NCBI GenBank assembly: GCA_025360445.1
Contig: JANYCE010000026.1
Span: 1 to 37,716 of the forward strand
DNA length: 37,716 bases
Reading direction: 5' to 3'
Source: Betaproteobacteria bacterium
GTDB lineage: Bacteria; Pseudomonadota; Gammaproteobacteria; Burkholderiales; SG8-41
Shown here: one piece after another, positions 567 to 30,858 of the stretch
Layout: each line of letters starts with the position of its first letter
How positions within the stretch are numbered: the stretch's first letter is position 1
Translations under genes and position numbers: made by a program
The notes under the pieces: model-generated
Seen by the model: the letters and a program-made list of their open reading frames with translations, nothing else
Databases searched by the model: none
Told to the model about the DNA's origin: nothing

Positions 567-1151
567 ATGCGCTGCGGCGTTGACGAGGCAGGGCGCGGGC
601 CGCTCGCCGGGCCGGTGTTTGCCGCGGCAGTGATCCTGGGCGTGAGGCATGGCATCACGGGCTTGGCGGATTCCAAAACACTCAGCGCAGCGCGGCGAGA
701 TGCACTGGAGCCGAAAATTAAAAAGTACGCGATAGCATGGGCCATAGCGAGCGCGTCGGTCGAAGAAATTGACGCGCTAAACATACTGCAGGCAACGCTG
801 CTCGCGATGCGCCGCGCCGTAGAGGCGCTCGACAAGTTGCCGTCTGAAGTCTTGGTCGACGGACTTTTCTGCCCTGAGATTGCCATCCCTTCGCGTGCGA
901 TTGTCCGCGGCGACTCGCTGATCCCCGAGATATCCGCGGCGTCTATTTTGGCGAAGACCGCACGGGATGCGCTCATGGTGTCTCTGCATTCGCAATATCC
1001 CGGCTATGGGTTCGACCGGCATAAGGGCTATGGCACCGCCCGGCATCTGGAGGCATTGCGCCTGCACGGGGCCTGTGAGGTGCATCGGCGTACTTTCGCG
1101 CCCGTTAGAATCTTGCTTGGCGAGACCTGCCGCTCGACTGCTATTGTGTGA
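567..1151 (+). CDS. rnhB: Ribonuclease HII
   Basis: RNase HII cuts RNA of RNA/DNA hybrids and removes single ribonucleotides from DNA. The 194-aa protein opens with [15 protein letters not shown], the family signature. The four metal-binding acids can be placed at D6, E7, D98 (LVDG) and D116 (RGDS), followed by [12 protein letters not shown] and the [10 protein letters not shown] motif. The ATG lies one base after the lpxB stop and no better upstream start is seen. The N-terminus is therefore about ten residues shorter than in E. coli, as is common in this family. It is the last gene of the lipid A operon. Its 3' end overlaps the tail of the convergent senB gene by 11 bp, so no terminator fits between them. 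Confidence 0.95.
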
Positions 1152-2091
1152 ACTCGCGGATCAGTTTTTGTATCGCGGCTTTTTCACGAGCAGGCCAGGT
1201 CAAGCCGCAACGTGCAGCGCATTGACGTTTTAACTCGGCATAAAACTTTTCATCCGACTCGGCGCGCCACACTAAGCGAGCCAGGGCCCGTTCATTGCCC
1301 AGCGGAAAATATCCCGCGTAATCCTGCCCCAACATACCGACGTTTCCCGCGACCCGCGACGCGATGACCGGCACACCTGCGGCGAGCGCTTCAGTAACCA
1401 CATTGGCGCCGCCTTCCACGCGTGAACTGATGATCAAAAGCCGCGCACGCGCGAGGCGTCGCACTGCTGCGCCATGCGGCAATTCACCGATCCAGCGATA
1501 ACGTGGCTCGCGGCGCATCCACTGCTTTGCTTCCCGTTCCATAGTTTTTTTTATCGCACCGCCGATCTGGACTGCCCGCACCCGGCTGGCGGGTGGCAGG
1601 TGCGTCAACGCGGCCGCGAGGCGGAACGGGTCTTTAACCTCGCGTAGATGACCGCTGATGCAAATTTCAAATCGAGACTTAAGCGGTGAAGGTTTTTTCA
1701 TGGGTTTGGTCGACTGATAGATCACCCGCGTTTTTTGGAGCAGATGCGGCGGTAGCTCTTTAACTCCTTCGCTTTGCAAAACGATCAGGCGAGTCGCAAG
1801 ATTAAGCGAGAGTTGGGCATCGGCATCCACCCGTATGTCGCCGTAAAGATCGGTACCCGTCAGCATCAGCACGAGCGGTCGATCGGGAAATGCAGCGGCG
1901 AAGCGCGCGATCGAATCGTGACTGCGCCGGGCGTGCAGCGCAATCATGACATCGGCGTTGGCGCCGTCCCACGCCGTTTGCACACGAATCCGATGACCGA
2001 GCTCGCGCAGCAGCATGGACCAGCGTAATGCCGTATTGCGATTACCGGAGTGCGCAACGGGCCGCGCCGGCGTGATGAGTGCGATTTTCAT
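1141..2091 (-). CDS. senB: Selenosugar synthase SenB (TIGR04348-type GT-B glycosyltransferase)
   Basis: SenB is known to make a 1-selenosugar from a UDP-sugar and selenophosphate, the first committed step of selenoneine synthesis. The 316-aa product starts [11 protein letters not shown] and has the residues I recognise for this family: [10 protein letters not shown] near the N-terminus, [42 protein letters not shown] and the donor-site segment [23 protein letters not shown]. This is a two-domain GT-B fold without membrane segments. The ORF track start at 2133 is upstream and would overlap senA; I prefer the ATG at 2091 because the family begins with MKI. It is divergent from senA with only 27 bp between start codons, which supports the assignment. 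No selD-like selenophosphate synthetase (SenC) is in the window. Assignment rests on remembered family motifs, not a search. Confidence 0.85.
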
Positions 2092-2112
2092 GCGTTGCCG
2101 TTGAGCTAAAAT
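2085..2112 (+). promoter_or_regulatory. Candidate sigma70 promoter of senA
   Basis: A possible -10 TAAAAT (2107-2112) lies 16 bp after a weak -35 TTTTCA (2085-2090). Transcription would begin at about 2119, on the senA ATG itself, giving a leaderless or nearly leaderless mRNA. There is no Shine-Dalgarno sequence before that ATG, which is consistent. The -35 overlaps the senB start codon. This is prediction by eye only. Confidence 0.35.
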
Positions 2113-2118
2113 GTCACC

Positions 2119-3459
2119 ATGGATGCAGGGCAAACTATAGCAGAGGTCGAATCACGCAGATTGATCGCGGCTACGCCTGCGTCGGTGTTGGCCAGCCGCC
2201 TGCGCGCGGCACGTGAGCGCACATTGTTGCTTTCATGCGACCTCACTGGCGAGCAATTGCTGGGGCCCAGGCTGGCGACAGTAAATCCGCCGCTGTGGGA
2301 GATAGCCCACCTCGCGTGGTTTCAGGAGTATTGGTGCCTGCGATATCGCGATAAAAATCTGTGCGCCCCCTCGCTCATTGCGACTGCAGACTCGCTTTAC
2401 GACTCGGCGCGGGTACCGCATGCCACGCGCTGGAATCTGTCGCTGCTGCCGTTGGATACAGTACTGCACTTTCTCGATGATGTGCTCACGCGCGTGCTCG
2501 AGCGGATCGAGCTTGAGCCTGACAATGAAAGTCTGCGTTACTTCGTCGAACTTGCAGCCGCGCATGAGGAGATGCATGACGAAGCCTTTACGTATACCCG
2601 CCAGACTCACGGCTACGCCGCGCCGCGACAGAAAGACATGACGAGTCCGCAGGCAAGCGCATCCGCGGGTGATGCGGCAGTGGCGGGCGGGATCTACCTG
2701 TTGGGCGCAAAACCAGGAACCCAATTTGTTTTCGACAATGAAAAGTGGGAACACCCGGTTGTTTTAAAGCCATTTGAGATCGCGCGTGCGGCGGTGACCA
2801 ATGGCGAATTCGCGGAGTTCGTCGACGATGGCGGTTACGCAAGGGCTGAATGCTGGTGTGAAGCCGGGCGGCAATGGCGTCAAGAGGCCGCCGCACTCGC
2901 ACCGGTTTACTGGGTTAAGCAAGGCGGTGAGTGGTATCACCGCGTCTATGACAACGTCGTTGCTTTGCCATCTGAGACAGCAGTCATCCACATAAACTGG
3001 TATGAAGCCGACGCGTGGTGCCGGTGGGCTGGTCGCCGGCTGCCGTCCGAGGCCGAGTGGGAGCAAGCAGCGGCGACAACTGCAATAGATGCCGAAGGTA
3101 CTGTAGCCAAGCGCGTATATCCGTGGGGACATCAGCCTTCGGATTTCTTACGTGCAAATCTCTATGGTGTGGCGGGCTCGGTCGCGCCGGTAGGCGCGTT
3201 TCAAACCGGCGACAGCGCATGGGGTTGCCGCCAGATGCTCGGCAACGTGTGGGAGTGGACCGCCGACTGGTTTAATCCATATCCGGGTTTCGTCCGCGAC
3301 CCGTATAAGGAATATTCGGAGCCATGGTTTGGCAGTCATAAAGTTCTGCGCGGCGGCTGCTTTGCAACGACCGCTGCGCTGTTGCGCAACACCTGGCGAA
3401 ATTTTTATATGCCGGACAGGCGCGACGTGTTCGCCGGCTTTCGCACGTGCGCGCGATGA
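2119..3459 (+). CDS. senA: Selenoneine synthase SenA (EgtB-like non-heme iron enzyme)
   Basis: SenA couples hercynine with the selenosugar made by SenB in an O2-dependent C-Se bond-forming reaction. It is a paralogue of the sulfoxide synthase EgtB of ergothioneine synthesis. The 446-aa protein has an N-terminal DinB_2-like domain (about residues 25-170) with EIAHLAWF (H64) and HEEMHDE (H149, H153), which fit the three-histidine iron site of EgtB. A C-terminal FGE-sulfatase domain (about 190-446) carries RLPSEAEWE, MLGNVWEWTADWF and LRGGCFAT. LYDSARVPHATRW resembles SenA more than classical EgtB. The neighbouring senB is the main reason for calling SenA rather than EgtB. The start is uncertain: TTG at 2161 and GTG at 2185 are in-frame options that would still leave the domain intact. 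The stop overlaps the next gene by ATGA. Confidence 0.8.
   Translation: MDAGQTIAEVESRRLIAATPASVLASRLRAARERTLLLSCDLTGEQLLGPRLATVNPPLWEIAHLAWFQEYWCLRYRDKNLCAPSLIATADSLYDSARVPHATRWNLSLLPLDTVLHFLDDVLTRVLERIELEPDNESLRYFVELAAAHEEMHDEAFTYTRQTHGYAAPRQKDMTSPQASASAGDAAVAGGIYLLGAKPGTQFVFDNEKWEHPVVLKPFEIARAAVTNGEFAEFVDDGGYARAECWCEAGRQWRQEAAALAPVYWVKQGGEWYHRVYDNVVALPSETAVIHINWYEADAWCRWAGRRLPSEAEWEQAAATTAIDAEGTVAKRVYPWGHQPSDFLRANLYGVAGSVAPVGAFQTGDSAWGCRQMLGNVWEWTADWFNPYPGFVRDPYKEYSEPWFGSHKVLRGGCFATTAALLRNTWRNFYMPDRRDVFAGFRTCAR
2134..2139 (-). promoter_or_regulatory. Candidate -10 element of senB inside senA
   Basis: On the minus strand TATAGT (5 of 6 to consensus) lies about 43 bp upstream of the senB ATG, inside the first codons of senA. 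No good -35 is visible 16-18 bp upstream. If real, the two sen promoters overlap face to face and each lies in or at the other gene. Confidence 0.3.
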
Positions 3460-4250
3460 AGAGGATAGTGTCCGCCGATAACCCGCGATTCAAGGCTTTG
3501 CTTAAACTTGCGGAGTCGTCGCGCGAGCGCAAGAAGCACGGTTTTTCACTGCTCGACGGCTCTCATCTTGTCGCGGCCTACAGCGAGCACATCGGTCTGC
3601 CGGAAGAGTTGGTCGTCAGTGATAGGGGAGCGGAGGACCCTGAAGTCAAGGCTCTCATTGAAGCACTGGCGCCCGTCGCGCCTTTGCTGCTCTCGGCTCA
3701 ACTTTTTCATCAGCTCTCGACCGTCGCCACGCCGACGGGCATTTTGGCGGTAGTCAAAACACCACGGCCACCGGCCATGCCGGCACAAATAGAAGCGTGC
3801 GTGCTGCTCGAGGATATTCAGGATCCCGGCAATCTGGGTTCGCTGTTGCGTTCGGCGGCAGCCGCTGGCATGAGGCACATTTTTCTTTCCAAGTCGTCGG
3901 TGCAGGCTTGGTCGCCGCGCGTACTGCGGGCCGGCATGGGGGCGCACTTCATGCTGAAAATCCACGAGCAATGCGATTTAATCAAGCTGATTCCGACACT
4001 GCAGGCGCGCGTGATCGCAACCAGTCATCGCGCGCAGACGTCAGTGTTCGAGACTAATCTAACGGGGCCGGTCGCATTGATGTATGGCAATGAAGGCACC
4101 GGGCTGTCGACGGAGCTGATGGCGACGGCGCATGAAATCGTTTCGATACCGATGGCGGGCGGGACTGAGTCGCTGAACATTGCCGCCGCTGCGGCGATAT
4201 GTTTGTTTGAGCGCGTCCGCCAGCAGCAGGTGGCGCGCCGGACTCAGTAG
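3456..4250 (+). CDS. SpoU/TrmH-family RNA 2'-O-methyltransferase
   Basis: This 264-aa protein is a SPOUT-class methyltransferase that uses S-adenosylmethionine to methylate a ribose 2'-OH of rRNA or tRNA. The exact substrate cannot be read from the sequence. The N-terminal part resembles the substrate-binding domain (NPRFKALLKLAESSRER, LLDGSHLV). The C-terminal knot has motif 1 DPGNLGSLLRSAAAAG, motif 2 YGNEGTGLS and motif 3 IPMAGGTESLNIAAAAA. I chose the ATG at 3456 rather than the GTG at 3447. It gives an ATGA overlap with the senA stop, suggesting translational coupling. In related genomes this gene normally follows rnhB directly, so the sen pair appears inserted between them. Its end overlaps the tail of ppsR by 7 bp. 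Confidence 0.9.
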   Translation: MKRIVSADNPRFKALLKLAESSRERKKHGFSLLDGSHLVAAYSEHIGLPEELVVSDRGAEDPEVKALIEALAPVAPLLLSAQLFHQLSTVATPTGILAVVKTPRPPAMPAQIEACVLLEDIQDPGNLGSLLRSAAAAGMRHIFLSKSSVQAWSPRVLRAGMGAHFMLKIHEQCDLIKLIPTLQARVIATSHRAQTSVFETNLTGPVALMYGNEGTGLSTELMATAHEIVSIPMAGGTESLNIAAAAAICLFERVRQQQVARRTQ

Positions 4251-5080: not shown

Positions 5081-5142
5081 TCAAAATAGAACCGGTAAAA
5101 TAGCTTTTTTTGATGCTTTGCACAAATTTTATAGGCTGCCCA

Positions 5143-7539
5143 ATGAGTAACAATCCATATGTCATCCCATTCGAAAACCTTCGCATGCAAGACGTCGGGC
5201 GCGTCGGCGGCAAAAATGCCTCATTAGGGGAGATGATCGGTCAGCTGGCGGGCGCCGGCGTTCGCGTGCCAGGCGGTTTCGCGACAACGGCCGATGCCTA
5301 TCGCGAATTTCTTGCTCATGAGGGTCTCGACAAGCGCATAGAGCAAAAGCTTCTCAAATTAAACGTAGAGGATGTCAATGCGCTCGCGGCGGCAGGCCAA
5401 GAAATCCGCGCCTGGATCACAGCGCAACCTTTTCCTGGGCAGCTCGAGCAAGACGTCGCTGCGGCCTATCAGTCGTTGCAGCACGGTGCGAATGATGACT
5501 TATCAGTGGCAGTACGCTCATCGGCAACTGCGGAAGATCTACCGGACGCGTCGTTTGCCGGCCAGCAGGAAACCTTTCTGAATATCCACGGGCTCTCCAG
5601 TGTGCTTGATGCGGTCAAGCACGTGTTTGCATCGCTCTACAACGATCGCGCAATTTCATACCGCGTGCACAAAAATTTCATACACGCAGATGTCGCATTG
5701 TCCGCCGGCATTCAACGCATGGTGCGCAGCGATCTCGCAGCGAGCGGGGTTATGTTCACGCTGGATACGGAATCGGGATTCGACCAGGTCGTGTTCATTA
5801 CGTCCGCCTACGGCTTGGGGGAAACGGTGGTGCAGGGGCAGGTTAATCCGGACGAGTTTTACGTATACAAACCGGCGCTCATGCACGGCAGAAAGGCAAT
5901 CATCCGGCGCAACCTTGGCTCCAAGGCGTTGCGCATGACATTTACGGATTCGCGCGTCGCCGGTAGATCGGTGCGCACGGACGAAGTGCCCGAACAGGAA
6001 CGGCGCCGCTTTTCGATTAGCGATGCGGACGTCGAGGAGTTGGCGCGCTTCGGGCTCATCATCGAGCAGCACTACAAGCGCGCGATGGACATTGAATGGG
6101 GCCGCGACGGGATAGACGGGAAACTCTATATCTTGCAGGCCCGCCCGGAGACCGTGAAAGCCAGCGAGAAAGTCGATACCTTGCGCCGCTACCGGCTGAA
6201 GCAGCGGTCTGACGTCCTGGCATCCGGACGCGCAATCGGCCAACGAGTGGGGTCGGGACCGGTGAAGCTGGTGCAAAGCGCGGCCGAAATGGATCGCGTG
6301 CATCCAGGCGACGTGCTGGTGACGGATATGACTGATCCCGACTGGGAGCCGGTCATGAAGCGCGCGTCGGCAATTGTCACGAACCGCGGCGGGCGCACCT
6401 GTCATGCCGCAATTATTGCGCGCGAACTTGGCATTCCGGCAGTGGTCGGTTGCGGCGACGCCACCCGGGTGTTGAAAGAAGGGCGATCAGTGACGGTATC
6501 CTGCGCGGAAGGCGATACCGGCTATGTCTATCGCGGCATTCTTGAAGTAGAAATTATCGACCTATCGCTAGAAGCGATGCCGAAAGCGCCTCTCAAAATA
6601 ACGATGAACGTCGGCAACCCGGAACTCGCGTTTGAGTTTCAGCGCCTGCCCAACGACGGGGTGGGCCTGGCCCGACTTGAGTTCATTATTGCGCGCATGA
6701 TAGGCGTACACCCCAAGGCAATACTTGCGTATCCCGACTTGCCAGGTGATCTCAAAATTGCGGTCGAGCAGCACGCAGCAGGTTATGCGAATCCAGTCGA
6801 GTTTTACGTCGAGAAATTGTGCGAAGGCGTGGCCACGCTCGGCGCGGCGTTCTGGCCGAAGCCCGTAATCGTGCGTCTGTCGGATTTTAAATCCAACGAA
6901 TATTCGAGTTTGACCGGCGGCTCCAAATACGAGCCGCACGAAGAAAATCCCATGCTGGGTTTTCGCGGCGCGTCGCGCTATATCGCAGCGGCATTTCGCG
7001 ATTGTTTCGAACTCGAATGCCGCGCAATGAAAAAAGTGCGCGACGAAATGGGTCTAACTAACGTAGAGCTCATGGTGCCGTTTGTGCGCACGGTCGGGGA
7101 AGCCAGGCAGGTTATCGAGTTGCTGGCCCACAACGGCTTGCGGCGCGGTGAAAACGGGTTGCGCATTATCATGATGTGCGAGATACCGTCGAACGCGATT
7201 CTCGCCGACCAGTTTCTCGAACACTTCGACGGCTTCTCGATAGGATCCAACGACATGACGCAGATGACGCTCGCACTCGACCGCGACTCAGGCATCATCG
7301 CGGAAGGCTTCGACGAGCGTGATCCCGCGGTCAAGCACATGCTGCATCTTGCAATCCAGGCCTGCCGCAAAGCGGGCAAATATGTTGGCATCTGCGGGCA
7401 GGGTCCATCAGACCATCCGGACCTCGCAAAATGGTTGATGGAAGAGGGGATCGGCAGCTTGTCACTTAATCCCGACACGGTGGTTGAAACCTGGCTCTAT
7501 CTTGCGAATGAAGCCAAGAAGTCGGCGGCTCCGACATGA
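5143..7539 (+). CDS. ppsA: Phosphoenolpyruvate synthase
   Basis: PpsA converts pyruvate, ATP and water to PEP, AMP and phosphate, feeding gluconeogenesis. The start at 5143 ([10 protein letters not shown]) is preferred to the TTG at 5110 in the ORF track because it matches the family N-terminus and length: 798 aa against 792 in E. coli. The N-terminal ATP-binding domain contains [11 protein letters not shown] and [26 protein letters not shown]. The swivelling domain has [22 protein letters not shown] with catalytic His421. T419, the residue PpsR phosphorylates in E. coli, is at the same number. The C-terminal PEP/pyruvate domain has [11 protein letters not shown] and [14 protein letters not shown] weak TAAAAT (5096-5101) in the ppsR-ppsA gap could be its -10. 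It is an isolated transcription unit, followed by the pyrG promoter. Confidence 0.97.
7396..7403 (+). other. KOPS-like octamer GGGCAGGG
   Basis: Matches the FtsK-orienting polar sequence consensus GGGNAGGG. It lies on the + strand left of the dif site, so it points toward dif, the polarity expected for a terminus. It is within ppsA. Confidence 0.45.
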
Positions 7540-7558
7540 TGTGTGCAGGCGAATTGCA

Positions 7559-7587
7559 TTGAGTGGAAGATTTGATTGCGTTAGAAT
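7559..7587 (+). promoter_or_regulatory. Candidate sigma70 promoter of the pyrG-kdsA-eno-ftsB operon
   Basis: TTGAGT (7559-7564) is followed after exactly 17 bp by TAGAAT (7582-7587), matching 4/6 and 5/6 of the consensus. Initiation would be near 7594, about 19 nt before the pyrG ATG. It is the only clear promoter-like pair between ppsA and pyrG. Confidence 0.55.
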
Positions 7588-7606
7588 ATGAAAACGGCTC
7601 GCATGA

Positions 7607-9298
<1,692 letters not shown>

Positions 9299-9304
9299 CG
9301 CGTT

Positions 9305-11439
<2,135 letters not shown>

Positions 11440-18564: not shown

Positions 18565-19518
18565 ATGAAGGATTTGGGCAAAAATACGGTGTCTCGTCAC
18601 TTGGTCGGAGAAGAAACCGGCGGACAACGCGTCGATAATTACCTCGTAAAGCTGCTCAAGGGCGTGCCGAAGAGCCATATTTACCGCATCCTGCGCAGCG
18701 GTGAAGTGCGGGTAAACGGGGGCCGCGCTAAACCCGACTACCGCATTAAAACCGGCGATGAATTACGAATCCCTCCAGTGCGAGTAGCCGCGGCCAGTGT
18801 CCGGGCCGCGCCGCCAGTCAGCGCCGAACTCGAGCGAGCGGTGTTATTCGAGGACGAGCACTTCCTGGCGCTTAATAAGCCGTCAGGGCTGGCGGTGCAT
18901 GGCGGCAGCGGTTTAAGCTTTGGTGTGATCGAGCAATTGCGGGGACAGCGGCCACAAGCGCGATACTTTGAACTCGTGCACCGGCTCGATCGCGACACGT
19001 CGGGCGTGCTGTTGATCGCCAAAAAACGCAGCGCCTTGACCGCCATGCACGCTGAGTTGCGTGAGGGGAACATCAAAAAGTTCTACTTGACGCTTGTCAA
19101 GGGTGTCTGGCGCAACAAAAAGCAGGCCGTCAAACTTAATCTGCATAAGTATTTGTTGGCGTCAGGCGAGCGGCGAGTGGCGGTGCACGACGACGGGCAG
19201 GAATCCCACACTGTGTTCGAGCTGAATCAGACGTGGGGCGCCTATAGTTTATTGCGCGCCGAGTTGAAAACCGGGCGCACACACCAGATCCGCGTGCATC
19301 TGGCGCACTTGGGATTTCCCATCGCAGGCGATGACAAATATGGCGACTTCGAGCTCAATAAACAACTTGGGCGAAACGGATTAAAGCGCATGTTCTTGCA
19401 TGCTGCGAGTGTGGGCTTCAGGCATCCGGCCAGCGGCGCCAAATTGGTCATAGAGGCGCCGTTGCCTGCCGAATTGCAATATTTTGTTGAAAAACTTAAC
19501 TCGGAAAAGTCGGAATAA
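18565..19518 (+). CDS. rluC: 23S rRNA pseudouridine synthase, RluC-like
   Basis: RluC isomerises uridines 955, 2504 and 2580 of 23S rRNA in E. coli. The 317-aa protein has an N-terminal S4 RNA-binding domain (about residues 20-70: QRVDNYLVKLLKGVPKSHIYRILRSGEVRVN). The RluA-type catalytic domain follows, with LALNKPSGLAVHGG and HRLDRDTSGVLL, where D142 is the catalytic aspartate. RTHQIRVHLAHLGFPIAGDDKYGD is the C-terminal signature. The position divergent from rne supports RluC over RluD. It heads a rightward group rluC-gph-Rieske; only 4 bp separate its stop from the gph start. Confidence 0.95.
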   Translation: MKDLGKNTVSRHLVGEETGGQRVDNYLVKLLKGVPKSHIYRILRSGEVRVNGGRAKPDYRIKTGDELRIPPVRVAAASVRAAPPVSAELERAVLFEDEHFLALNKPSGLAVHGGSGLSFGVIEQLRGQRPQARYFELVHRLDRDTSGVLLIAKKRSALTAMHAELREGNIKKFYLTLVKGVWRNKKQAVKLNLHKYLLASGERRVAVHDDGQESHTVFELNQTWGAYSLLRAELKTGRTHQIRVHLAHLGFPIAGDDKYGDFELNKQLGRNGLKRMFLHAASVGFRHPASGAKLVIEAPLPAELQYFVEKLNSEKSE

Positions 19519-19522
19519 TCGA

Positions 19523-20179
19523 GTGGGTAAACGCTTTAACCTGATCGTGTTCGACTGGGACGGCACTTTAATGAACTCGACCGCAGTCATCGTCGCCGCG
19601 CTCCAGGCATCGTGTGCGGACGTTGGCCTGCCAGTTCCGGCTGACGAGCGTGCCCGGCACATCATCGGCCTTGGACTTCACGACGCGCTGGCCTATGTTC
19701 TGCCCGGCGTCAATCCAGCCGTGTATCCGCAGGTCGTAGAACGCTATGGCCACCATTTCCGCTTGCGCGAACCGCAAACGCCGCTGTTTACGGGTGCTGA
19801 AGCGTTGTTGCAGGATCTGCATGCCGCTGGTCATCGACTCGCGATTGCCACGGGTAAGAGCCGACGAGGTCTCGATAGAGCTCTCGAGAAAACGGGTCTC
19901 GCGTCGTACTTTCACGCGACGCGATGTGGTGAGGAGTCGGCAAACAAGCCAGCGCCACAGATGTTGCTCGATCTGACGAGCATGCTTGGCGTGGCAGGTG
20001 GCGAAACTGTGATGATAGGCGACACTACGCACGATTTGCAGATGGCGGCTAATGCTGGAATTGAAAGTGTCGCGGTCACTTACGGTGCACACCCGCGCAG
20101 CCAGCTTCTAAATTTCAAACCGATCGCCTGCCTGGATCAACCACGGGAATTATGGCAATGGCTTCGCAGCAACGCTTGA
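19523..20179 (+). CDS. gph: HAD-family hydrolase, phosphoglycolate phosphatase-like
   Basis: A haloacid-dehalogenase superfamily phosphatase of 218 aa. The start chosen is GTG 19523 (VGKRFNLIVFDWDGTL), four bases after the rluC stop, because the TTG at 19484 would extend back into rluC. Motif I is DWDGTL with D11 and D13, motif II is IATGKS, motif III is the lysine in NKPAPQM, and motif IV is MIGDTTHDLQMA. The cap domain is the alpha-helical subclass I type. This subfamily next to rluC is usually annotated phosphoglycolate phosphatase or generic HAD-IA hydrolase. The true substrate cannot be deduced. Its 3' end overlaps the Rieske gene. Confidence 0.85.
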   Translation: MGKRFNLIVFDWDGTLMNSTAVIVAALQASCADVGLPVPADERARHIIGLGLHDALAYVLPGVNPAVYPQVVERYGHHFRLREPQTPLFTGAEALLQDLHAAGHRLAIATGKSRRGLDRALEKTGLASYFHATRCGEESANKPAPQMLLDLTSMLGVAGGETVMIGDTTHDLQMAANAGIESVAVTYGAHPRSQLLNFKPIACLDQPRELWQWLRSNA

Positions 20180-20514
20180 TTTGCGCGAGCGCCGGGTTAA
20201 CTGACGGCGGTCCCGGTGTGCGATTCATAATGCAAAAGAACGGCCGGGATGCCCCCGCATTTGCAATTCGCTATGACGGCCGAGTTTATGGCTACCTCAA
20301 TAGTTGCGCGCATATACCAGTAGAACTCGACTGGATGGAGGGCGAGTTCTTCGATAAAGCTGGGTTATACTTAATTTGCGCAACGCATGGCGCAACTTAC
20401 GAGCCCGATACCGGTCACTGCATTATGGGGCCGTGCAAAGGTGAACGACTTATAGCGGCGCCCGTAGAAGAACGCGATGGCAGCGTTTTTCTGGTGGAGC
20501 GCCACATATCGTGA
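20152..20514 (+). CDS. Small Rieske [2Fe-2S] protein
   Basis: A 120-aa soluble Rieske-type ferredoxin. The cluster ligands are C52-x-H54 (SCAHIPVELD) and C76-x-x-H79 (ICATHGATYEPDTG), followed by GPCKGERL. The fold is complete but there is no oxygenase or cytochrome domain and no membrane anchor, so electron transfer in the cytoplasm is inferred. The redox partner is unknown. The start overlaps gph by 28 bp; the ATG at 20158 (MASQQR) is an equally good choice with 22 bp overlap. A Rieske gene between gph and sppA is common in betaproteobacteria, which suggests a conserved but uncharacterised role. Confidence 0.88.
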   Translation: MAMASQQRLICASAGLTDGGPGVRFIMQKNGRDAPAFAIRYDGRVYGYLNSCAHIPVELDWMEGEFFDKAGLYLICATHGATYEPDTGHCIMGPCKGERLIAAPVEERDGSVFLVERHIS

Positions 20515-20589
20515 TGCAACACTTTTGCGCGATTTAGAAAACCTCTCTCACAATTTTATCACCCGCATTCAATAAGAAAGAAACTCGCA

Positions 20590-21552
20590 ATGGCTGATTT
20601 GGATCCGCGCAATACCGGGGACGGCTGGGAGCGCAGTGTCCTTGAAAAAGTTGCGCTCGCGGCCGTCGCAGAACAGCGCACTGCGCGACGCTGGGGCATG
20701 GCGTTCAAGATGCTGGTACTGATTTACTTGTTTGTCGTGCTGTTTTTGGGCATGGGATGGCTAAAAAAAGCCGGCGAAAAATCTTCCGGCAAGCACACTG
20801 CGATGGTCGAGCTCCGCGGCGTCATTGCGTCCCAGGGGCAGGCCAGCGCTGACAATGTCATGGCCGGCTTGCAGGCTGCGTTCAAAGACAGCAATACGCA
20901 GGGCGTCATCCTGCGCATCAACAGCCCGGGCGGCAGTCCGGTGCAAGCGGGCTATATCAATGACGAAATTAAGCGCCTCCGCGGCTTGTATCCCAACATT
21001 CCGGTTTATGCGGTCGTGGAGGACATTTGCGCCTCCGGCGGCTACTACGTGGCGGCGGCCACCGACAAAATTTACGTCGACAAGGCGAGCATCGTTGGCT
21101 CGATCGGCGTGGTCATGGACAGTTTCGGCTTCACCGGTACGATGGAAAAACTGGGCGTCGAGCGACGTGCAATTACCGCGGGGGAGAACAAAAAATTTCT
21201 GGATCCATTTTCACCGGTGAATCCCGCCCACAAGGCGTTTGCGGAAAAAATGCTTTCTGAAATTCATGAACAATTCATCGCCGTCGTGCGCGAGGGGCGT
21301 GGCAAGCGCCTCAAAGAAACGCCGGAACTTTTTAGCGGGCTGGTATGGGTTGGGCCGAAAAGTATCGAGCTCGGATTGGCCGACGCCCTCGGCAGCGTCG
21401 ACTCGGTAGCGCGCGATGTGATCAAGGCGGAAGATGTCGTCGACTTCACACCGCACGAGAACATTGCTGAAAGAGTCGCGCGACGATTTGGTGCGGCGAT
21501 GGCCGAGGCGCTCGTAAAAGTAACGGCGTCGAGCGGCGCGCAGTTGCGCTGA
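20590..21552 (+). CDS. sppA: Signal peptide peptidase SppA-like, S49 family
   Basis: S49 peptidases cut signal peptides and membrane protein fragments within or next to the inner membrane. The 320-aa short-form protein has a polar N-terminus, one transmembrane helix (about residues 40-57, KMLVLIYLFVVLFLGMGW) and a periplasmic catalytic domain. RINSPGGSPVQAG and CASGGYYVAAATDKI place the nucleophile at S149. The general-base lysine is expected at about K201-202 in ENKKFLDPFSP. VGPKSIELGLADALG follows. The C-terminus, with VARRFGAAMAEAL, is amphipathic. It is separated from the Rieske gene by 75 bp without a clear promoter. The stop abuts the end of the convergent methyltransferase gene. Confidence 0.93.
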   Translation: MADLDPRNTGDGWERSVLEKVALAAVAEQRTARRWGMAFKMLVLIYLFVVLFLGMGWLKKAGEKSSGKHTAMVELRGVIASQGQASADNVMAGLQAAFKDSNTQGVILRINSPGGSPVQAGYINDEIKRLRGLYPNIPVYAVVEDICASGGYYVAAATDKIYVDKASIVGSIGVVMDSFGFTGTMEKLGVERRAITAGENKKFLDPFSPVNPAHKAFAEKMLSEIHEQFIAVVREGRGKRLKETPELFSGLVWVGPKSIELGLADALGSVDSVARDVIKAEDVVDFTPHENIAERVARRFGAAMAEALVKVTASSGAQLR

Positions 21553-22275
21553 TCACCGCGCGTAGAGCAGGAAAACGCTGGGCCGCCTGCCGATTTCTCC
21601 CACGTTAGCTTTCCATTCGTTAATAGTTGCGCTACGCACAGATTCGGTCGCAAGCGTTAAGTCGCTCGCGATACACAGCCGGGAGGCTCCCGCACACACG
21701 GCAAGAAAAATCTGCAGCAACTGATCGTTGCGATAAGGCGTTTCTATAAATATCTGCGTCATGTTCTGTGCACGTGATTCGTTTTCCAGCAGGGCTATGG
21801 CGCGGCGGCACTCATCTTTCGGCACCGGCAGATAGCCGTGAAATGCAAATCGCTGGCCGTTAAATCCCGACGCCATTAACGCGAGCATCATTGCGGAAGG
21901 GCCGATATGCGGCACCACGCGAATACGCAATCGATGCGCGGCGGCTACCAGCAATGCACCCGGATCTGCGATAGCCGGACAGCCAGCCTCAGACAAGACC
22001 CCGGCACTGCGTCCGGTGGAAAGCGAGTGCAATAGCTCGGTGGCGCGTTCAGGACTGCTATCTTTGTCGAACAATTCTATTTTCAGATCTCTTAAAGCTT
22101 TTGGATGCCCGATGCTTTTTAAAAATCCTCGTGCGGTCTTGGCGTTTTCTGCCAGAAAATAATCGAGTGCGCATGCCGCGTGCAAGGCGGAAGGCGGCAA
22201 CGACATATGCGGGTCGGTGTCGCCCAGGGTGACCGGTATTAAATGCAATGCGCCGTGCGCCGTGCCCGCGTCCAT
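21553..22275 (-). CDS. SAM-dependent methyltransferase, RsmI-like (tetrapyrrole methylase fold)
   Basis: A member of the tetrapyrrole-methylase (TP) fold related to RsmI, the 16S rRNA C1402 2'-O-methyltransferase. It differs from RsmI itself: the N-terminus reads LHLIPVTLGD where RsmI has a VATPIGN-type start. The signature GVLSEAGCPAIADPGALLVAAA is clear, as are HIGPSAMMLALMASGFNGQRFAFHGYLP and IFIETPYRNDQLL. I chose the start MDAGTAHG at 22275, which leaves 10 bp after the yceF stop; the 22299 start in the track would overlap yceF. Length is about 240 aa. The substrate cannot be assigned. It follows yceF on the same strand and is probably co-transcribed with it. Confidence 0.85.
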   Translation of the reverse strand: MDAGTAHGALHLIPVTLGDTDPHMSLPPSALHAACALDYFLAENAKTARGFLKSIGHPKALRDLKIELFDKDSSPERATELLHSLSTGRSAGVLSEAGCPAIADPGALLVAAAHRLRIRVVPHIGPSAMMLALMASGFNGQRFAFHGYLPVPKDECRRAIALLENESRAQNMTQIFIETPYRNDQLLQIFLAVCAGASRLCIASDLTLATESVRSATINEWKANVGEIGRRPSVFLLYAR

Positions 22276-22285
22276 AGCCATGAAG

Positions 22286-22879
22286 TTAAGGCAGCTCAAA
22301 GCCTTCGTTGCGCAACATTTTGCACAACGCGATAAGCGGCAGGCCGATCAGCGCAGTGGGATCGTCGCCTTCCAACTTTTCCACCATCGCAATACCGAGG
22401 CCCTCGATGCGTGCGCTGCCGGCGCAGTCGAAGGGCGTATCGCTAAGAACGTAGCGCTCTATCTGCTCGTCCGAATACTCGCGCATATGAACGATGATCG
22501 TGACTAGCGCCGTCTGCTGAAGCGCGCTACGTGAATTTAGCAAGCACACTGCCGTATGAAATCGAACCCGCTCGCCGCGCATGCGCTTTAGCTGGCTGGC
22601 GGCATTGGTAAAATCGCCCGGCTTACCGATGATGGTGTTCCCGACGACTGCGACCTGGTCACTGCCGATGATCAACGCGTCGGGCCACGCGTGCCGGACG
22701 GCCTCAGCCTTACGGCACGCAAGGCGTAACGCGAGGGCCGGCGGCTTTTCACCCACCAGAGGAGCTTCATCAACCTCAGGCGCGGCGATTTTAAACGGAA
22801 TTTTCAGGCGCTCCAGAAGTTCGCGGCGATACGGCGAAGTCGAGGCCAGAACAAGTTCAGCGGGGGCAGGGTAATCCAT
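22286..22879 (-). CDS. yceF: Maf-like nucleotide pyrophosphatase (7-methyl-GTP type)
   Basis: Maf proteins hydrolyse non-canonical nucleoside triphosphates; the YceF branch prefers m7GTP. The 197-aa protein has LASTSPYRRELLERLKIPF, APEVDEAPLVGE, IIGSDQVAVV with the catalytic Asp, GKPGDFTNAASQL and the C-terminal GDDPTALIGLPLIALCKMLRNEG. These agree closely with YceF of E. coli rather than the dTTP/UTP pyrophosphatase YhdE. Its location divergent from yceD-rpmF-plsX matches the conserved neighbourhood. Intergenic distance to yceD is 88 bp and contains the yceD promoter. Confidence 0.95.
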   Translation of the reverse strand: MDYPAPAELVLASTSPYRRELLERLKIPFKIAAPEVDEAPLVGEKPPALALRLACRKAEAVRHAWPDALIIGSDQVAVVGNTIIGKPGDFTNAASQLKRMRGERVRFHTAVCLLNSRSALQQTALVTIIVHMREYSDEQIERYVLSDTPFDCAGSARIEGLGIAMVEKLEGDDPTALIGLPLIALCKMLRNEGFELP

Positions 22880-22929
22880 GGGTGAGCTTGCTAAGTCCCT
22901 GCGTTAAAGGGTTTTTCTGTTATCTTGTT

Positions 22930-22958
22930 TTGACAGACTAGAGCGAAAATATTATCAT
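22930..22958 (+). promoter_or_regulatory. Near-consensus sigma70 promoter of the yceD-rpmF-plsX-fab operon
   Basis: TTGACA (22930-22935, perfect) is followed after 17 bp by TATCAT (22953-22958, 5/6). The predicted start, near 22965, is only about 3 nt from the yceD ATG at 22968, and there is no ribosome site before it. The transcript would be leaderless or nearly so. Confidence 0.8.
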
Positions 22959-22967
22959 GCGCGGTTT

Positions 22968-23471
22968 ATGTCTGCACGACCTCTAATTGATAGCCTTGAA
23001 TTTGCGAGCGCTGGCGAGCAGTTAACCGGCAGCGTGCCGGTCAGCGAATTTGCGAGGCTAAGCGACAGCTTGCATGACGCGGATGGTGGATTGCAATTCG
23101 AGATTAGGGGCGGTCGTGATTCCCGGCAACGGTTGCGATTGCATATGACGGTCACGGGCAGCATCGATTTACTCTGCCAACGCTGTCTCGGCAAACTGAT
23201 TTACCCGCTGGCGGTCAAGACAAACTTGCTGCTTTTGACTAATGGCGCAGAAGCCGACGCAGGCGGGATTGATGATCTCGACGGCGTGCCGGCCACCGCG
23301 CAGACGGATGTGTGGTCGCTGGTGGAAGATGAAGTTTTGTTGGCAATTCCGCTTGCGCCGCGACATGCCGAGGGTCAATGCAGTCCGGCGGTCAAGGGAT
23401 CAGGCGACTCTGCGGCATCGCCATTTGCGGCGCTGGCTAAGCTGGCGCACGAACGTAGTATTAAGAATTGA
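22968..23471 (+). CDS. yceD: DUF177 family protein YceD
   Basis: YceD (DUF177) is a small conserved protein encoded next to ribosomal protein L32 in most bacteria and linked to 23S rRNA accumulation in plants and E. coli. The 167-aa product starts SARPLIDSLEFASAG, a normal family N-terminus. It contains GSIDLLCQRCLGKLIYPL, with the CxxC pair typical of the family. The C-terminal part has SLVEDEVLLAIPLAPRH and ends SPFAALAKLAHE. It is the first gene of the rpmF-plsX-fab operon. The perfect -35 and good -10 directly upstream leave almost no 5' UTR. Confidence 0.92.
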   Translation: MSARPLIDSLEFASAGEQLTGSVPVSEFARLSDSLHDADGGLQFEIRGGRDSRQRLRLHMTVTGSIDLLCQRCLGKLIYPLAVKTNLLLLTNGAEADAGGIDDLDGVPATAQTDVWSLVEDEVLLAIPLAPRHAEGQCSPAVKGSGDSAASPFAALAKLAHERSIKN

Positions 23472-23489
23472 ACGTAAAGGAGTTTCAAA

Positions 23490-23669
23490 ATGGCAGTTCA
23501 GCAAAACAAAAAGTCCCCTTCGAAACGCGGCATGCACCGCTCACACGATTTTCTTGTTGCGCCGTCGCTCGCTGTTGAGCCAACCACCGGCGAAATGCAT
23601 TTGCGCCACCACATCAGCCCCACCGGCTACTACCGCGGGAAAAAAGTCGTCAAAACCAAAGACGAGTAA
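23490..23669 (+). CDS. rpmF: 50S ribosomal protein L32
   Basis: Too short for the ORF track. The 59-aa frame reads [20 protein letters not shown] at the start and ends [15 protein letters not shown], the standard proteobacterial L32 of the large ribosomal subunit near the peptidyl-transferase region. It lacks the four-cysteine zinc site of some other bacterial L32 versions, as expected for this class. A strong ribosome site (AAAGGAG, 8 nt from the ATG) precedes it, in contrast to yceD. Located 18 bp after yceD. Confidence 0.98.
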
Positions 23670-23745
23670 GGTCGGCGAGGTTCGTGTCGAATCTTGTGGC
23701 TTTAAGCGCGCCAGCCAGTCCGGTGCGCGCCGGCGGGGACGGTAA

Positions 23746-24762
23746 ATGGACGTAACGGTGGCGGTCGATTGTATGGGCGGCGATCACGGCCCGCACGTAA
23801 CTGTCCCCGCTGCGCTCGACTTTCTACAGCGTTGCGAAGCGGTGAACGTCATCCTCGTCGGCCTGCAGGACGAAATTAAAGTCGAATTGCGCAAAGCAAG
23901 GCGCGAGTTGGCCGCGCGGACCGCGATACAGCATGCGAGTGAAACGGTCGGCATGGACGAGGCGCCCGCTAGCGCCTTGCGCGGAAAAAAAGACTCCTCC
24001 ATGCGCGTGGCGGTCAACCTGGTCAAAGACGGCGCCGCTCACGCCTGCGTTAGCGCCGGCAATACCGGCGCCTTGATGGCGATATCGCGTTTCGTGCTGA
24101 AAACCCTGCCTGACATCGAGCGTCCGGCCATCTGTTCGGTTCTACCGACGGTAAGTGGCCGGACTTACATGCTCGATTTAGGCGCCAATGTCGATTGCAC
24201 TGCCGAGCAACTTTTGCAATTCGGCGTAATGGGCGCAATGCTGGTCAGCGCGGTGGAAAACAAGGAGCGGCCGAGCGTCGGCCTCCTGAATATCGGCGAG
24301 GAAGAAATTAAAGGCAGCGAAGTCGTCAAGCACGCCGCAGAGTTATTACGTGCGAGCGGGCTCAACTTTTATGGCAATGTCGAGGGTGACGATATCTATA
24401 AGGGTACCACCGACGTTGTGGTATGCGATGGATTCGTCGGCAATGTCACTCTCAAAGCCTCCGAAGGGATCGCGCGGATGCTTGGCACTTATTTACGCGA
24501 AGAGTTTAACCGTAACTTATTGACGCGCGCAGCGAGTCTGGCAGCGCTGCCGGTGCTGAATGCATTTAAGCGACGCTTCGATCCGCGCAACTACAACGGC
24601 GCGACCCTGTTGGGACTGCGCGGCATCGTGGTTAAAAGCCATGGATCTGCCGATCGCACGTCGTTTCGGATTGCCATCGGCCGCGCGGCCGACGAAGCAC
24701 GCAGCGGTGTCCTCGCCAAGATTACGGATCGCATGCTGGTCATACAGGAAAATGCGGCGTGA
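23746..24762 (+). CDS. plsX: Phosphate acyltransferase PlsX
   Basis: PlsX converts acyl-ACP and phosphate to acyl-phosphate, the donor for PlsY in phospholipid synthesis. It is a peripheral membrane enzyme. The 338-aa protein starts [14 protein letters not shown] and has [31 protein letters not shown] and [27 protein letters not shown] and [15 protein letters not shown] follow. Family length is about 340. It follows rpmF by 76 bp and its stop overlaps the fabH GTG start as GTGA, so translation is probably coupled. Confidence 0.97.
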
Positions 24763-25718
24763 TTTATTCGCGCATTGTGGGTACCGGCAGTTATCTGCCA
24801 GCCAATGTCGTCAGCAACGACGAACTTGCGAACCGGATCGACACCTCCGACGAATGGATACGCACGCGCACGGGAATCCACCAGCGTCATCTCGCAGAGG
24901 CGGGGCAGATGTCGAGCGACCTTGCGCATCAGGCGGCGCTTCAGGCATTGAAGGCGGCGGGAATGGCGGCGTCAGATCTCGACTTAATCATAGTTGCAAC
25001 CTCAACCCCGGATTTTATTTTCCCGAGTACCGCATGCGTGCTGCAGGCCAAACTCGGCGCTGTACGCTGCCCGGCGTTTGACGTTCAGGCTGTGTGTTCG
25101 GGCTTCGTTTATGCGCTCGACATCGCGGATAAATTTATCCGCAGCGGGGCGTACAAACGCGCGCTGGTGGTCGGCACTGAAGTATTTTCCCGGATTCTCG
25201 ACTGGACCGACCGCGGCACGTGCGTATTGTTTGGCGACGGCGCCGGGGCGGTAGTCCTCGCGGCAGCTGACACGCCCGGCCTGCGCGCGAGTGTGTTACA
25301 TGCGGACGGTTCGCACTTGGGCATATTGTCGACGCCAGGTCAATTGTGCGGCGGCAAGGTTACCGGCGATCCGTTTTTACGAATGGATGGAAAGGCAGTG
25401 TTTAAACTGGCCGTGCGCGTGCTCGATGAAGTGGCGCGCGAGACACTCGCGTTGTGCGAAATGCAGCCCGCCGACGTCGACTGGTTGATTCCGCATCAGG
25501 CCAATGTACGCATTTTGGATGCGACCGCAAAAAAACTGGGCATCTCTACCGCTAAAACCATCGTGACCGTCGACCGTCACGCCAATACCTCCGCCGCCTC
25601 TATACCGTTGGCGCTCGACGTGGCGGTGCGTGACGGGCGCATTAAAGCCGGCCACAAAGTTTTGCTCGCAGGCGTCGGGGGTGGTTTTACGTGGGGCGCT
25701 GTGTTGGTTGAGATGTAG
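24759..25718 (+). CDS. fabH: Beta-ketoacyl-ACP synthase III
   Basis: FabH condenses acetyl-CoA with malonyl-ACP to start fatty-acid chains. The 319-aa protein starts at GTG ([20 protein letters not shown]). The catalytic triad is visible at C113 ([12 protein letters not shown]), H246 ([10 protein letters not shown]) and N276 ([10 protein letters not shown]). [11 protein letters not shown] and the C-terminal [11 protein letters not shown] are family signatures. It overlaps the plsX stop by 4 bp and precedes fabD by 8 bp. Confidence 0.97.
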
Positions 25719-25726
25719 GAGTCGAG

Positions 25727-26665
25727 ATGAAGCTTGCATTGGTTTTCCCGGGTCAAGGATCACAGACGGTAGGCATGCTGCAGAGTTTTGCCGATAGCAA
25801 ACCTGTGCGCGATACGTTTGCCGAAGCCGCCGACGTGCTGGGACAAAATTTGTGGCAGCTTGCGGCTGACGGTCCGGCGGAAGACCTTAACTCGACGGTC
25901 AATACTCAGCCGCTCATGCTGACGGCCGGCTACGCGATTTATCGCGCGTGGCTGGATGCCGGCGGGAGACAGCCTGCAATCGTCGCCGGGCATAGCCTCG
26001 GTGAATACACCGCGCTGGTGGTAGCGGGCGTGGTGAGTTTTCGCGATGCGCTGCCACTCGTGCGGTTGCGCGCTCAGGCAATGCAGGAGGCAGTGCCCGC
26101 AGGCACTGGCGCGATGGCCGCGATACTTGGTCTCGACGATGACGCGGTGCGTGTCGCGTGTGCGGAGGCTGCGCAAGGTGAAATTGTCGAAGCAGTCAAC
26201 TTTAACGCGCCAAGCCAAGTCGTCATCGCCGGTCACAAGGCCGCGGTTGAGCGCGCCGCTGACATTGCCAAAGCGAAAGGCGCCAAGCGTGCCGTGATGT
26301 TGCCGGTCAGCGCTCCGTTTCATGCTTCTTTGCTGAAGCCTGCCGCCGAACGTCTCGAGCAAGCGCTTGCAGGCGTCACCTTCAATGCACCGCAAATACC
26401 GATCATTAATAACGTAGACGTCGCCGTTGTAACAGATCCCGCGCAAATACAAGACGCGCTTGCACGTCAGGCGTGCAATCCCGTGCGGTGGGTCGAAGTC
26501 ATTCAGCACATGGCGCGTAGCGGCGTAACGCATGTAGGCGAATGCGGTCCCGGCAAAGTGCTGGCCGGCATGACAAAGCGCATCGACAATAGTTTGCAGG
26601 GGTTTGCCATCGCGGATGCGGCGTCGCTCCTGAAGTCGCTACAGATATTTTCACAGGCGGCGTGA
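25727..26665 (+). CDS. fabD: Malonyl-CoA:ACP transacylase
   Basis: FabD transfers malonyl from CoA to acyl carrier protein, supplying the extender unit for FabH and FabF. The 312-aa protein starts LALVFPGQGSQTVGM. It has the nucleophile S90 in VAGHSLGEYTAL, the conserved glutamine in the early GQGSQ and NTQPLML, R117 in the LRAQAM segment and the second catalytic residue H199 in SAPFHASLL. The C-terminal VGECGPGKVLAGM is typical. Its stop TGA overlaps the fabG ATG by one base (TGATG). Confidence 0.97.
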   Translation: MKLALVFPGQGSQTVGMLQSFADSKPVRDTFAEAADVLGQNLWQLAADGPAEDLNSTVNTQPLMLTAGYAIYRAWLDAGGRQPAIVAGHSLGEYTALVVAGVVSFRDALPLVRLRAQAMQEAVPAGTGAMAAILGLDDDAVRVACAEAAQGEIVEAVNFNAPSQVVIAGHKAAVERAADIAKAKGAKRAVMLPVSAPFHASLLKPAAERLEQALAGVTFNAPQIPIINNVDVAVVTDPAQIQDALARQACNPVRWVEVIQHMARSGVTHVGECGPGKVLAGMTKRIDNSLQGFAIADAASLLKSLQIFSQAA

Positions 26666-27405
26666 TGCTCAACGGACAAGTCGCATTAGTCACCGGCGCA
26701 ACACGCGGCATCGGCCAGGCGATTGCACTCGCGCTCGGTAAGCAGGGCGCCGTGGTGGCCGGAACTGCCACCACTGAAGCGGGCGCACAGACAATCAACG
26801 CCTACCTCTTTGCCGCCCAAATAAAAGGCGCGGGTTTTGCGATGAACGTCAACGATGCGACGCAGGTTGCGGCGACGCTCGTTGCCGTGCAGAAGGCGTG
26901 CGGCGATATTGCGATCCTGGTCAACAACGCCGGAATCACGCGCGACAACTTGTTACTGCGCATGAAAGATGATGAGTGGGATGACATCTTGTCGACCAAC
27001 CTGAAGTCGGTGTACCGGCTCTCCAAGCTGGTGCTACGTCCGATGATGAAAGCGCGCCACGGCCGCATCATTAACATTACGTCGGTGGTTGGCGTGATGG
27101 GCAATGCCGGACAGACAAATTACGCCGCGGCGAAGGCCGGCATGATCGGATTCAGCAAATCCCTCGCGCGCGAAATAGGCAGCCGCAATATTACTGTAAA
27201 TTGCGTGGCGCCCGGGTTCATCGATACTGATATGACGCGCGAACTCGATGCAAACCAGCGTGCGTCGCTCATCGGGCAGATTCCGCTGGCGCGCCTCGGC
27301 ACGGTCGATGAAGTAGCCGGTGCGGTGGCGTTTCTGGCAGGGCCGGCCGCGGGTTACATCACAGGCGCAACCTTGCATGTCAACGGCGGAATGTTGATGG
27401 ATTAG
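26665..27405 (+). CDS. fabG: 3-oxoacyl-ACP reductase
   Basis: FabG is the NADPH-dependent reductase of the fatty-acid elongation cycle. The 246-aa SDR protein has the nucleotide loop TGATRGIGQAIA and NNAGITRDNLL. The catalytic S140, Y153 and K157 lie in NITSVVGVMGNAGQTNYAAAKAG. The C-terminal GYITGATLHVNGGMLM is the FabG signature. I chose the ATG at 26665 (TGATG junction with fabD) over the GTG at 26662; both are possible. A promoter-like element lies in the 89 bp before acpP. Confidence 0.97.
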   Translation: MLNGQVALVTGATRGIGQAIALALGKQGAVVAGTATTEAGAQTINAYLFAAQIKGAGFAMNVNDATQVAATLVAVQKACGDIAILVNNAGITRDNLLLRMKDDEWDDILSTNLKSVYRLSKLVLRPMMKARHGRIINITSVVGVMGNAGQTNYAAAKAGMIGFSKSLAREIGSRNITVNCVAPGFIDTDMTRELDANQRASLIGQIPLARLGTVDEVAGAVAFLAGPAAGYITGATLHVNGGMLMD

Positions 27406-27422
27406 CGGATGAATTGCACTGG

Positions 27423-27452
27423 TTAGGTGCCACGCGCCGTATTTGGTAAAAT
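27423..27452 (+). promoter_or_regulatory. Candidate internal promoter for acpP
   Basis: TAAAAT (27447-27452) is a good -10; TTAGGT 18 bp upstream is a weak -35. acpP is usually transcribed at higher level than the rest of the operon. The acpP ribosome site AAGGGA lies 7 nt from its ATG. Confidence 0.4.
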
Positions 27453-27494
27453 ACTTTCCGCATAAAACCGGATCACTCCTTAAGGGAACTCTAG

Positions 27495-27731
27495 ATGGAA
27501 AATATAGAACAGCGCGTCAAGAAGATTGTTGCCGAGCAACTCGGCGTCAGCGAAGCCGATGTCAAGAATGACTCGTCATTCGTCAACGACCTTGGCGCCG
27601 ACTCGCTCGATACAGTCGAACTGGTGATGGCGCTCGAAGAAGAATTCGAGTGCGAGATTCCGGACGAAGAAGCGGAAAAAATTACCACCGTTCAACAGGC
27701 CACCGATTACGTCAAGTCCCACCTCAAGTAG
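27495..27731 (+). CDS. acpP: Acyl carrier protein
   Basis: AcpP carries growing acyl chains on 4'-phosphopantetheine. The 78-aa acidic protein has the attachment serine S37 in the invariant [18 protein letters not shown]. The N-terminal [16 protein letters not shown] and the C-terminal [10 protein letters not shown] are standard. It is placed between fabG and fabF as usual and preceded by a good ribosome site. Highly acidic composition and length agree with the family. Confidence 0.98.
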
Positions 27732-27761
27732 TCCTGATCAGGCTCGAACCGCGGAACTCCA

Positions 27762-29000
27762 TTGGCACGTCGCAGAGTAGTTGTCACCGGCCTGGGCATT
27801 ATTTCTCCGGTCGGCATCGGCATTCCAGAAGCGTGGGGAAACATCGTCGCGGGAAATTCCGGCATCACGCGCATTTCGCGTTTCGATACAACTACTTTTC
27901 CGACCCAGATCGCGGGCGAGGTCAAGGGGTTTGAGGTAGGAAAATGGCTTTCCCCCAAGGAAGCACGGCGCTTCGACACTTTTATTCACTATGGTCTTGC
28001 CGCGGCCATCGATGCGCTGCAAGACTCCGGACTCGATCTCGATCAGGAAGATCGTAACCAGATAGGCGTGTGCATAGGGTCCGGCATTGGCGGGTTGCCG
28101 TTAATCGAAACCACCCATGATGCAATGCTCGCCGGCGGCGTGCGAAAAATTTCTCCATTTTTTGTGCCCGGCACGATCATAAATATGATTTCGGGCCAGC
28201 TCTCAATTATGTACGGCCTCAAAGGCCCGAACATTGCGGTGGTGAGCGCATGCACAACGGCGAATCACTCCATTGGCGAAGCCGGCCGCTTCATCGAGTA
28301 TGGCGATGCCGATGTGATGATCGCCGGCGGCGCCGAATCCACGGTTTCACCGCTTGGCGTGGGTGGTTTCTGTGCGGCGCGCGCGCTTTCCACACGCAAT
28401 GATGCGCCTGAACTTGCGAGCCGCCCGTGGGACAAAGATCGCGACGGCTTCGTGCTTGGTGAGGGCGCCGGTGTACTCGTGCTTGAAGAGTATGAGCGCG
28501 CAAAAAAACGCGGCGCGCGAATTTACTGCGAGCTCTCGGGGTATGGGCTAAGTGCGGACGCCCATCACATCACTGCACCGTGCGAAGACGGGGAGGGGGC
28601 CGCGCGTTGCATGGTCAACGCACTGCGCAATGGCAGCGTCAACCCCGAGCAGGTCGATTACATCAATGCGCACGGCACCTCAACGCCGCTTGGCGACATC
28701 GCGGAAACCATCGCGGTAAAACGCTGCTTCGGCGACCATGCAAAAAAACTTGCGGTCAGTTCAACCAAGTCGATGACCGGTCATCTGCTCGGCGCCGCCG
28801 GCGGGATCGAAGCCGTATTTACCGCCCTCGCGCTGCACGAGCAAATTGCACCCCCGACGATCAATCTCGTTAATCAAGATCCGCAATGCGATCTGGATTA
28901 CGTGCCGAACGAGGCGCGCAGAATGCCGATCAAAGTCGCGGTATCGAATTCGTTTGGCTTCGGCGGGACTAACGGCACTCTCGTATTCCGCGCCGTCTGA
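27762..29000 (+). CDS. fabF: Beta-ketoacyl-ACP synthase II
   Basis: FabF elongates acyl-ACPs with malonyl-ACP and is responsible for temperature-dependent unsaturated chain elongation in E. coli. The 412-aa protein has the catalytic cysteine C164 in VSACTTANHSIG. The two histidines lie in NAHGTSTPLGD (about 304) and MTGHLLGAAGG (about 341). NSFGFGGTNGTLVF is at the C-terminus. The start codon is TTG (27762): the frame begins ARRRVVVTGLGIISPVG exactly as the family does, and no ATG or GTG is available near. The ribosome site is only GGAA. The weak start could lower FabF relative to AcpP. Confidence 0.96.
   Translation: MARRRVVVTGLGIISPVGIGIPEAWGNIVAGNSGITRISRFDTTTFPTQIAGEVKGFEVGKWLSPKEARRFDTFIHYGLAAAIDALQDSGLDLDQEDRNQIGVCIGSGIGGLPLIETTHDAMLAGGVRKISPFFVPGTIINMISGQLSIMYGLKGPNIAVVSACTTANHSIGEAGRFIEYGDADVMIAGGAESTVSPLGVGGFCAARALSTRNDAPELASRPWDKDRDGFVLGEGAGVLVLEEYERAKKRGARIYCELSGYGLSADAHHITAPCEDGEGAARCMVNALRNGSVNPEQVDYINAHGTSTPLGDIAETIAVKRCFGDHAKKLAVSSTKSMTGHLLGAAGGIEAVFTALALHEQIAPPTINLVNQDPQCDLDYVPNEARRMPIKVAVSNSFGFGGTNGTLVFRAV
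28590..28597 (+). other. KOPS-like octamer GGGGAGGG
   Basis: Perfect match to GGGNAGGG on the + strand, within fabF, left of dif and pointing toward it. Confidence 0.4.
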
Positions 29001-29049
29001 GGTCGCCGCTGCGCCGGTCGTCTGCGCGAATCTCTGCACCCACACTCGA

Positions 29050-30853: not shown

Positions 30854-30858
30854 AAATC

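Follow-up and report, generated by a model that had tools for sequence, protein, structure and literature searches.

The closest described counterpart of the locus analysed here is the selenoneine (sen) pathway of Variovorax paradoxus, which comprises SenA, SenB and SenC (Kayrouz 2022, as cited in PMC13188914; PMC10702425; PMC10903977). Residues of SenB have been probed by mutagenesis or structure (PMC10891094; PMC10702425). Two other enzymes invite comparison: EgtB, the ergothioneine sulfoxide synthase (TIGR03440; PDB 4x8b), and OvsA of the ovoselenol pathway (PDB 8u41, 8u42 and 8ux5). The stretch of DNA analysed, hereafter the window, is a whole contig (C225, 37,716 nt) from a metagenome-assembled genome that totals 3.19 Mb, is split into 431 contigs and has an estimated completeness of 84%. 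Like the Variovorax locus, it holds homologues of SenB and SenA with their catalytic residues, encoded divergently; unlike that locus, it has no gene adjoining the pair that plays the part of SenC, the genome instead having a shared, probably selenocysteine-containing SelD on another contig. It differs also in that egtD lies elsewhere in the genome and in that the pair has a housekeeping location, with the following layout.

567..1151, plus strand: rnhB, ribonuclease HII (NF000596, 268 bits)
1141..2133, minus strand: senB, selenosugar synthase (Se-glycosyltransferase), assigned by a match to the TIGR04348 profile
2092..2118, no strand: intergenic gap of 27 bp separating the start codons of the divergently oriented senB and senA, read from the sequence with inferred starts and assuming the ATG start of senB
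2119..3459, plus strand: senA, selenoneine synthase (non-haem iron selenoxide synthase, EgtB superfamily), 446 aa, assigned by a match to the NF041186 profile
3456..4250, plus strand: SpoU-type RNA 2'-O-methyltransferase gene (spoU; TIGR00186, 110 bits, cut-off of 160 not reached, hence named by class only)

Both genes and their rnhB and SpoU flanks lie where the original prediction had placed them, the flanks now identified by profile match. The senB reading frame reaches a TTG at 2133, but the ATG at 2091 is the likelier start, giving a protein of 316 aa, the usual length for SenB; spoU has an alternative start, a GTG at 3447. The genes are tightly packed: rnhB and senB are convergent with 3' ends overlapping by 11 bp, and the stop codon of senA shares an ATGA with the ATG of spoU. 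GC content is 0.59 for both senB and senA, and 0.62 and 0.59 for their neighbours. Positions 5110-11439 and 18565-32498 of the window carry ordinary housekeeping genes, among them ppsA and genes for CTP synthase, a DAHP-type synthase, enolase, a pseudouridine synthase, an S49 peptidase, fatty-acid synthesis, YceG and DNA polymerase III delta'.

The glycosyltransferase had been assigned to the TIGR04348 group from its motifs, and the profile search bears this out: SenB scores 416.3 bits (E=6e-125) on this curated equivalog model, which has a cut-off of 300, and 233 and 232 bits against the SenB entries in the PDB. Aligned with Variovorax SenB, to which it is 46% identical, it keeps all of the sugar-donor and catalytic residues (N20, T23, R155, K158, E231 and E239, Variovorax numbering) and the whole selenophosphate pocket (H58, R61, T83 and T85, same numbering); the EGGAHV motif reads EGGANV. 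The divergent neighbour scores 487.7 bits (E=3e-146) on NF041186, the SenA equivalog model, with a cut-off of 420, and 99.6 bits on TIGR04373, with a cut-off of 71. It has a DinB_2 and an FGE-sulfatase domain, and its H64, H149 and H153 align with iron ligands, as expected from its earlier description as an EgtB-like iron enzyme with a three-histidine pattern and an FGE-sulfatase domain. Variovorax SenA, about 42% identical, lacks about 50 residues that lengthen the catalytic domain of both the window SenA and OvsA.

The window itself lacks selD and egtD because both are on other contigs of the genome. EgtD is encoded on C195 (396 bits, cut-off 291), in a location separate from senA; selD is on C54 (420-425 bits), divergent from mnmH, which agrees with the earlier expectation that selenophosphate must come from outside a window without selD or senC. 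The selD reading frame contains a TGA (context GGG(U)GCK), and selD genes with one internal TGA are present in all 10 family members examined (L226, L228, L231, L233, L235, L237-L239, L241 and L242); the codon is likely read as selenocysteine, making SelD a likely selenoprotein. The genome search proposed earlier also recovered selA, selB and tRNA-Sec, which lie together on C359. With selD, the selenocysteine genes and mnmH all present, the genome encodes a supply of selenophosphate, the insertion of selenocysteine and the selenation of tRNA, and its one shared SelD could serve the senB/senA pair as well. C359 also has a thioredoxin-reductase-like gene (L107:2088-2990; TIGR01292, 243 bits, cut-off of 343 not reached), placed between tRNA-Sec and selB.

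We propose that the intact pair is, very probably, a SenB/SenA route to selenoneine, and so a further case of an already known pathway, in an uncultured bacterium. SelD, encoded elsewhere in the genome, would supply selenophosphate, which SenB would couple to a UDP-sugar, breaking the Se-P bond to yield a 1-selenosugar; EgtD would convert histidine to hercynine; and SenA, with its non-haem iron, would place the selenosugar on C2 of hercynine as a selenoxide, from which loss of the sugar and then reduction would give selenoneine. With no SenC of their own, the sen genes would use the same SelD as the selenocysteine and selenouridine systems. We infer the activity, product and expression of the pair from gene identity, key residues, pathway genes and synteny. 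The glycosyltransferase matches TIGR04348, the EgtB-like protein falls apart from EgtB and the genome has both selD and egtD, so that none of the findings named beforehand as contrary to the original prediction was obtained; equivalog cut-offs, residues, tree and pathway genes agree in pointing to a selenoneine pathway.

The alternative that survives best is that the selenosugar made by SenB also feeds another, undescribed product, selenoneine being only one of its outlets. In our sample of the order (399 genomes), SenB scores above its cut-off in 116 genomes and SenA in 89. By a hand count from the two lists, about 16 SenB genomes, mostly near complete, lack any SenA-like match stronger than about 1e-60; selD is present in all 16. 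Several of these genomes, moreover, hold senB in the same slot between rnhB and spoU, an arrangement without senA that we found at ten loci (L243, L244, L246, L249, L250, L254, L256, L259, L260 and L262); in the tree, SenBs from this senA-less slot lie among or near the senA-linked SenBs of the same locus. Either senA has been lost from the SenB-only genomes or the selenosugar has another use in them. The orphan senB genes would need no new product to explain them if senA had been lost from beside them, and the window genome has an intact senA adjoining senB, together with egtD; we consider a second outlet unlikely, and favour selenoneine. Nonetheless, the SenB genomes without SenA turn a further, selenosugar-dependent product into a testable idea.

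Several of the senA-less loci have, when read by eye, a pentapeptide-repeat-like gene between senB and spoU, with no evident role in selenium metabolism. At two other loci (L245 in G043 and L255 in G261), selD directly follows senB and there is no senA nearby; both genomes are rated 100% complete, and their best matches to the SenA model reach only 1.8e-7 and 7.5e-7, respectively. On the basis of gene content, these senB-selD pairs are candidates for an undescribed selenosugar product.

The position of the pair had originally been taken to point to acquisition or relocation, on the grounds that rnhB and spoU are adjacent in many relatives. Such adjacency without sen genes does occur, but at only 4 of the 30 spoU loci examined, the others having senB/senA or senB alone near spoU; since it occurs within the order, the sen genes must have been gained or lost at some point. 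By contrast, the order lpxB-rnhB-senB<>senA-spoU is shared by 10 of the 11 family members in the order sample, with ppsR and ppsA next in most, and recurs, complete or largely so, in genomes from six further families (f11, f13, f17, f27, f37 and f48). Of 74 family genomes, 64 have a SenB that exceeds the cut-off. A tree in which the SenAs of the housekeeping locus and two allied rows were constrained to group together had a log-likelihood 10 units above that of the free search (p-AU 0.62), meaning that a single clade for these SenAs is not rejected, which falls short of proof. The exception within the family is a genome of the same genus (G293) in which the sen pair is on an 8.8-kb contig (C208; L109) without these neighbours and SenA groups with another family in the tree; this pair could reflect exchange or contamination, and its contig context and SenA grouping lead us to accept that exchange does occur.

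A recent horizontal origin of the pair in the window, or the relocation of a cassette in this lineage, has the four empty loci and G293 in its favour; against it stand the occupation of the same slot in most sampled genomes of the family and in genomes from six more families, an unrejected single clade with a likelihood above that of the free search, GC content like that of the neighbours and overlapping gene ends. We consider it quite improbable, and reject recent acquisition on conserved synteny, the unrejected clade and GC content; the earlier reading of the position does not hold. An ancient insertion is possible, whereas a recent one does not fit, and the sen genes would have resided in this housekeeping locus for a long time. 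A dedicated selenium-metabolite pathway would, on this reading, be a stable and widespread trait of an uncultured betaproteobacterial family, not a mobile curiosity.

A further alternative would make the EgtB-like protein an enzyme of ergothioneine synthesis that uses a sulfur donor, with the glycosyltransferase adjoining it by chance. The two enzymes have their superfamily and domains in common, including the DinB_2 and FGE-sulfatase domains, the three iron histidines and an aligned tyrosine, and the genome has egtD but no intact EgtB that we could find. The window protein scores 335.8 bits on the EgtB model TIGR03440, under its cut-off of 360, whereas relatives with both enzymes have a separate EgtB at 565-579 bits; EgtBs of the family are about 31% identical to the window SenA. 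At positions 101, 105 and 400, the seven EgtB proteins in the comparison have R/G/N, but the SenAs and OvsA of the same set read H/W/S, as does the window protein (H101, W105 and S400). H101 aligns with the arginine counted as R87 of M. thermoresistibile EgtB (PDB 4x8b), and R104 with R90; we take R87 and R90 to be the gamma-glutamylcysteine-binding arginines of that enzyme. The phylogeny proposed earlier as a check places the window protein in a clade of 12 SenAs (starred in the tree), all of them senB-linked, and apart from bona fide EgtB. An ergothioneine synthase was accordingly rejected on EgtB cut-off, tree and residues, and the conserved divergent pairing with senB further argues against chance adjacency; we regard this alternative as very improbable and retain SenA as the identity of the enzyme.

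What has become of EgtB itself is suggested by the only other EgtB-like match in the genome, an 87-aa open reading frame on C148 (L106:5002-5265). This frame fuses the N-terminal end of EgtB, which its first part follows as far as about residue 64, to the C terminus, which its last residues match; the genes on either side of it correspond to the neighbours of intact egtB in two genomes of the same genus. Because the ends of the frame match the EgtB termini and the flanks match intact egtB loci, about 1 kb of egtB appears to be missing in frame. The deletion could be an assembly error, and in a genome that is 84% complete and in 431 contigs the absence of an intact egtB elsewhere is not certain. 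Given the internal deletion of egtB, selenoneine is probably made in this genome in place of ergothioneine. Of the 18 family genomes examined, 5 have a true EgtB that passes the cut-off of the EgtB model, whereas all 18 have SenA-like matches to that model, at 316-343 bits.

These observations lead us to a broader suggestion, which we offer tentatively and would put at somewhat under an even chance: that the default histidine-derived chalcogen metabolite of the family is selenoneine, not ergothioneine, with the sen pair inherited vertically in a housekeeping locus and egtB often absent or lost, and with senB lacking senA in sister lineages reflecting another use of the selenosugar. Genomes with SenA and no intact EgtB provide a natural comparison for what selenoneine does beyond ergothioneine.

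Lastly, the best PDB match of the window SenA is OvsA (305 bits, against 272 bits for the SenA entry), with which it has in common the H/W/S sites and the extra length of the catalytic domain that Variovorax SenA lacks, and this raised the alternative of an OvsA-type enzyme giving a C5-selenated histidine on the route to ovoselenol. The tree and three residues of the pocket led us to reject it as highly unlikely: the window reads Y399/N428/F429, like Variovorax SenA, and not the natural OvsA form M/Q/A, OvsA and its relative L127 form a separate clade, and the genome has egtD, which is needed for the use of hercynine. The deposited OvsA sequences differ at these three sites, with M/Q/A in 8u41 and Y/N/F in 8ux5; L127, a natural relative 59% identical to OvsA, carries M/Q/A, and 8u41 is therefore probably the natural form. 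Judging from the PDB sequences and this relative, the three sites would set the position of the reaction; the fold, evident from the sequence, would not tell SenA from OvsA. They are not wholly fixed in SenA, because a gammaproteobacterial SenA linked to senB and egtD (L128) reads T/Y at the last two.

One SenA-like clade (L053, L069, L075, L077 and L078) scores above the SenA cut-off, is allied with OvsA in the tree and has no senB within several kb, most of its genomes having senB elsewhere; the SenA model may thus include a functionally distinct group. Another genome (G615, contig C4; L127/L149) has adjacent genes for the OvsA homologue (59% identical), SelD and a SenA-like protein, and this organism may, judging from its genes, make both ovoselenol and selenoneine.
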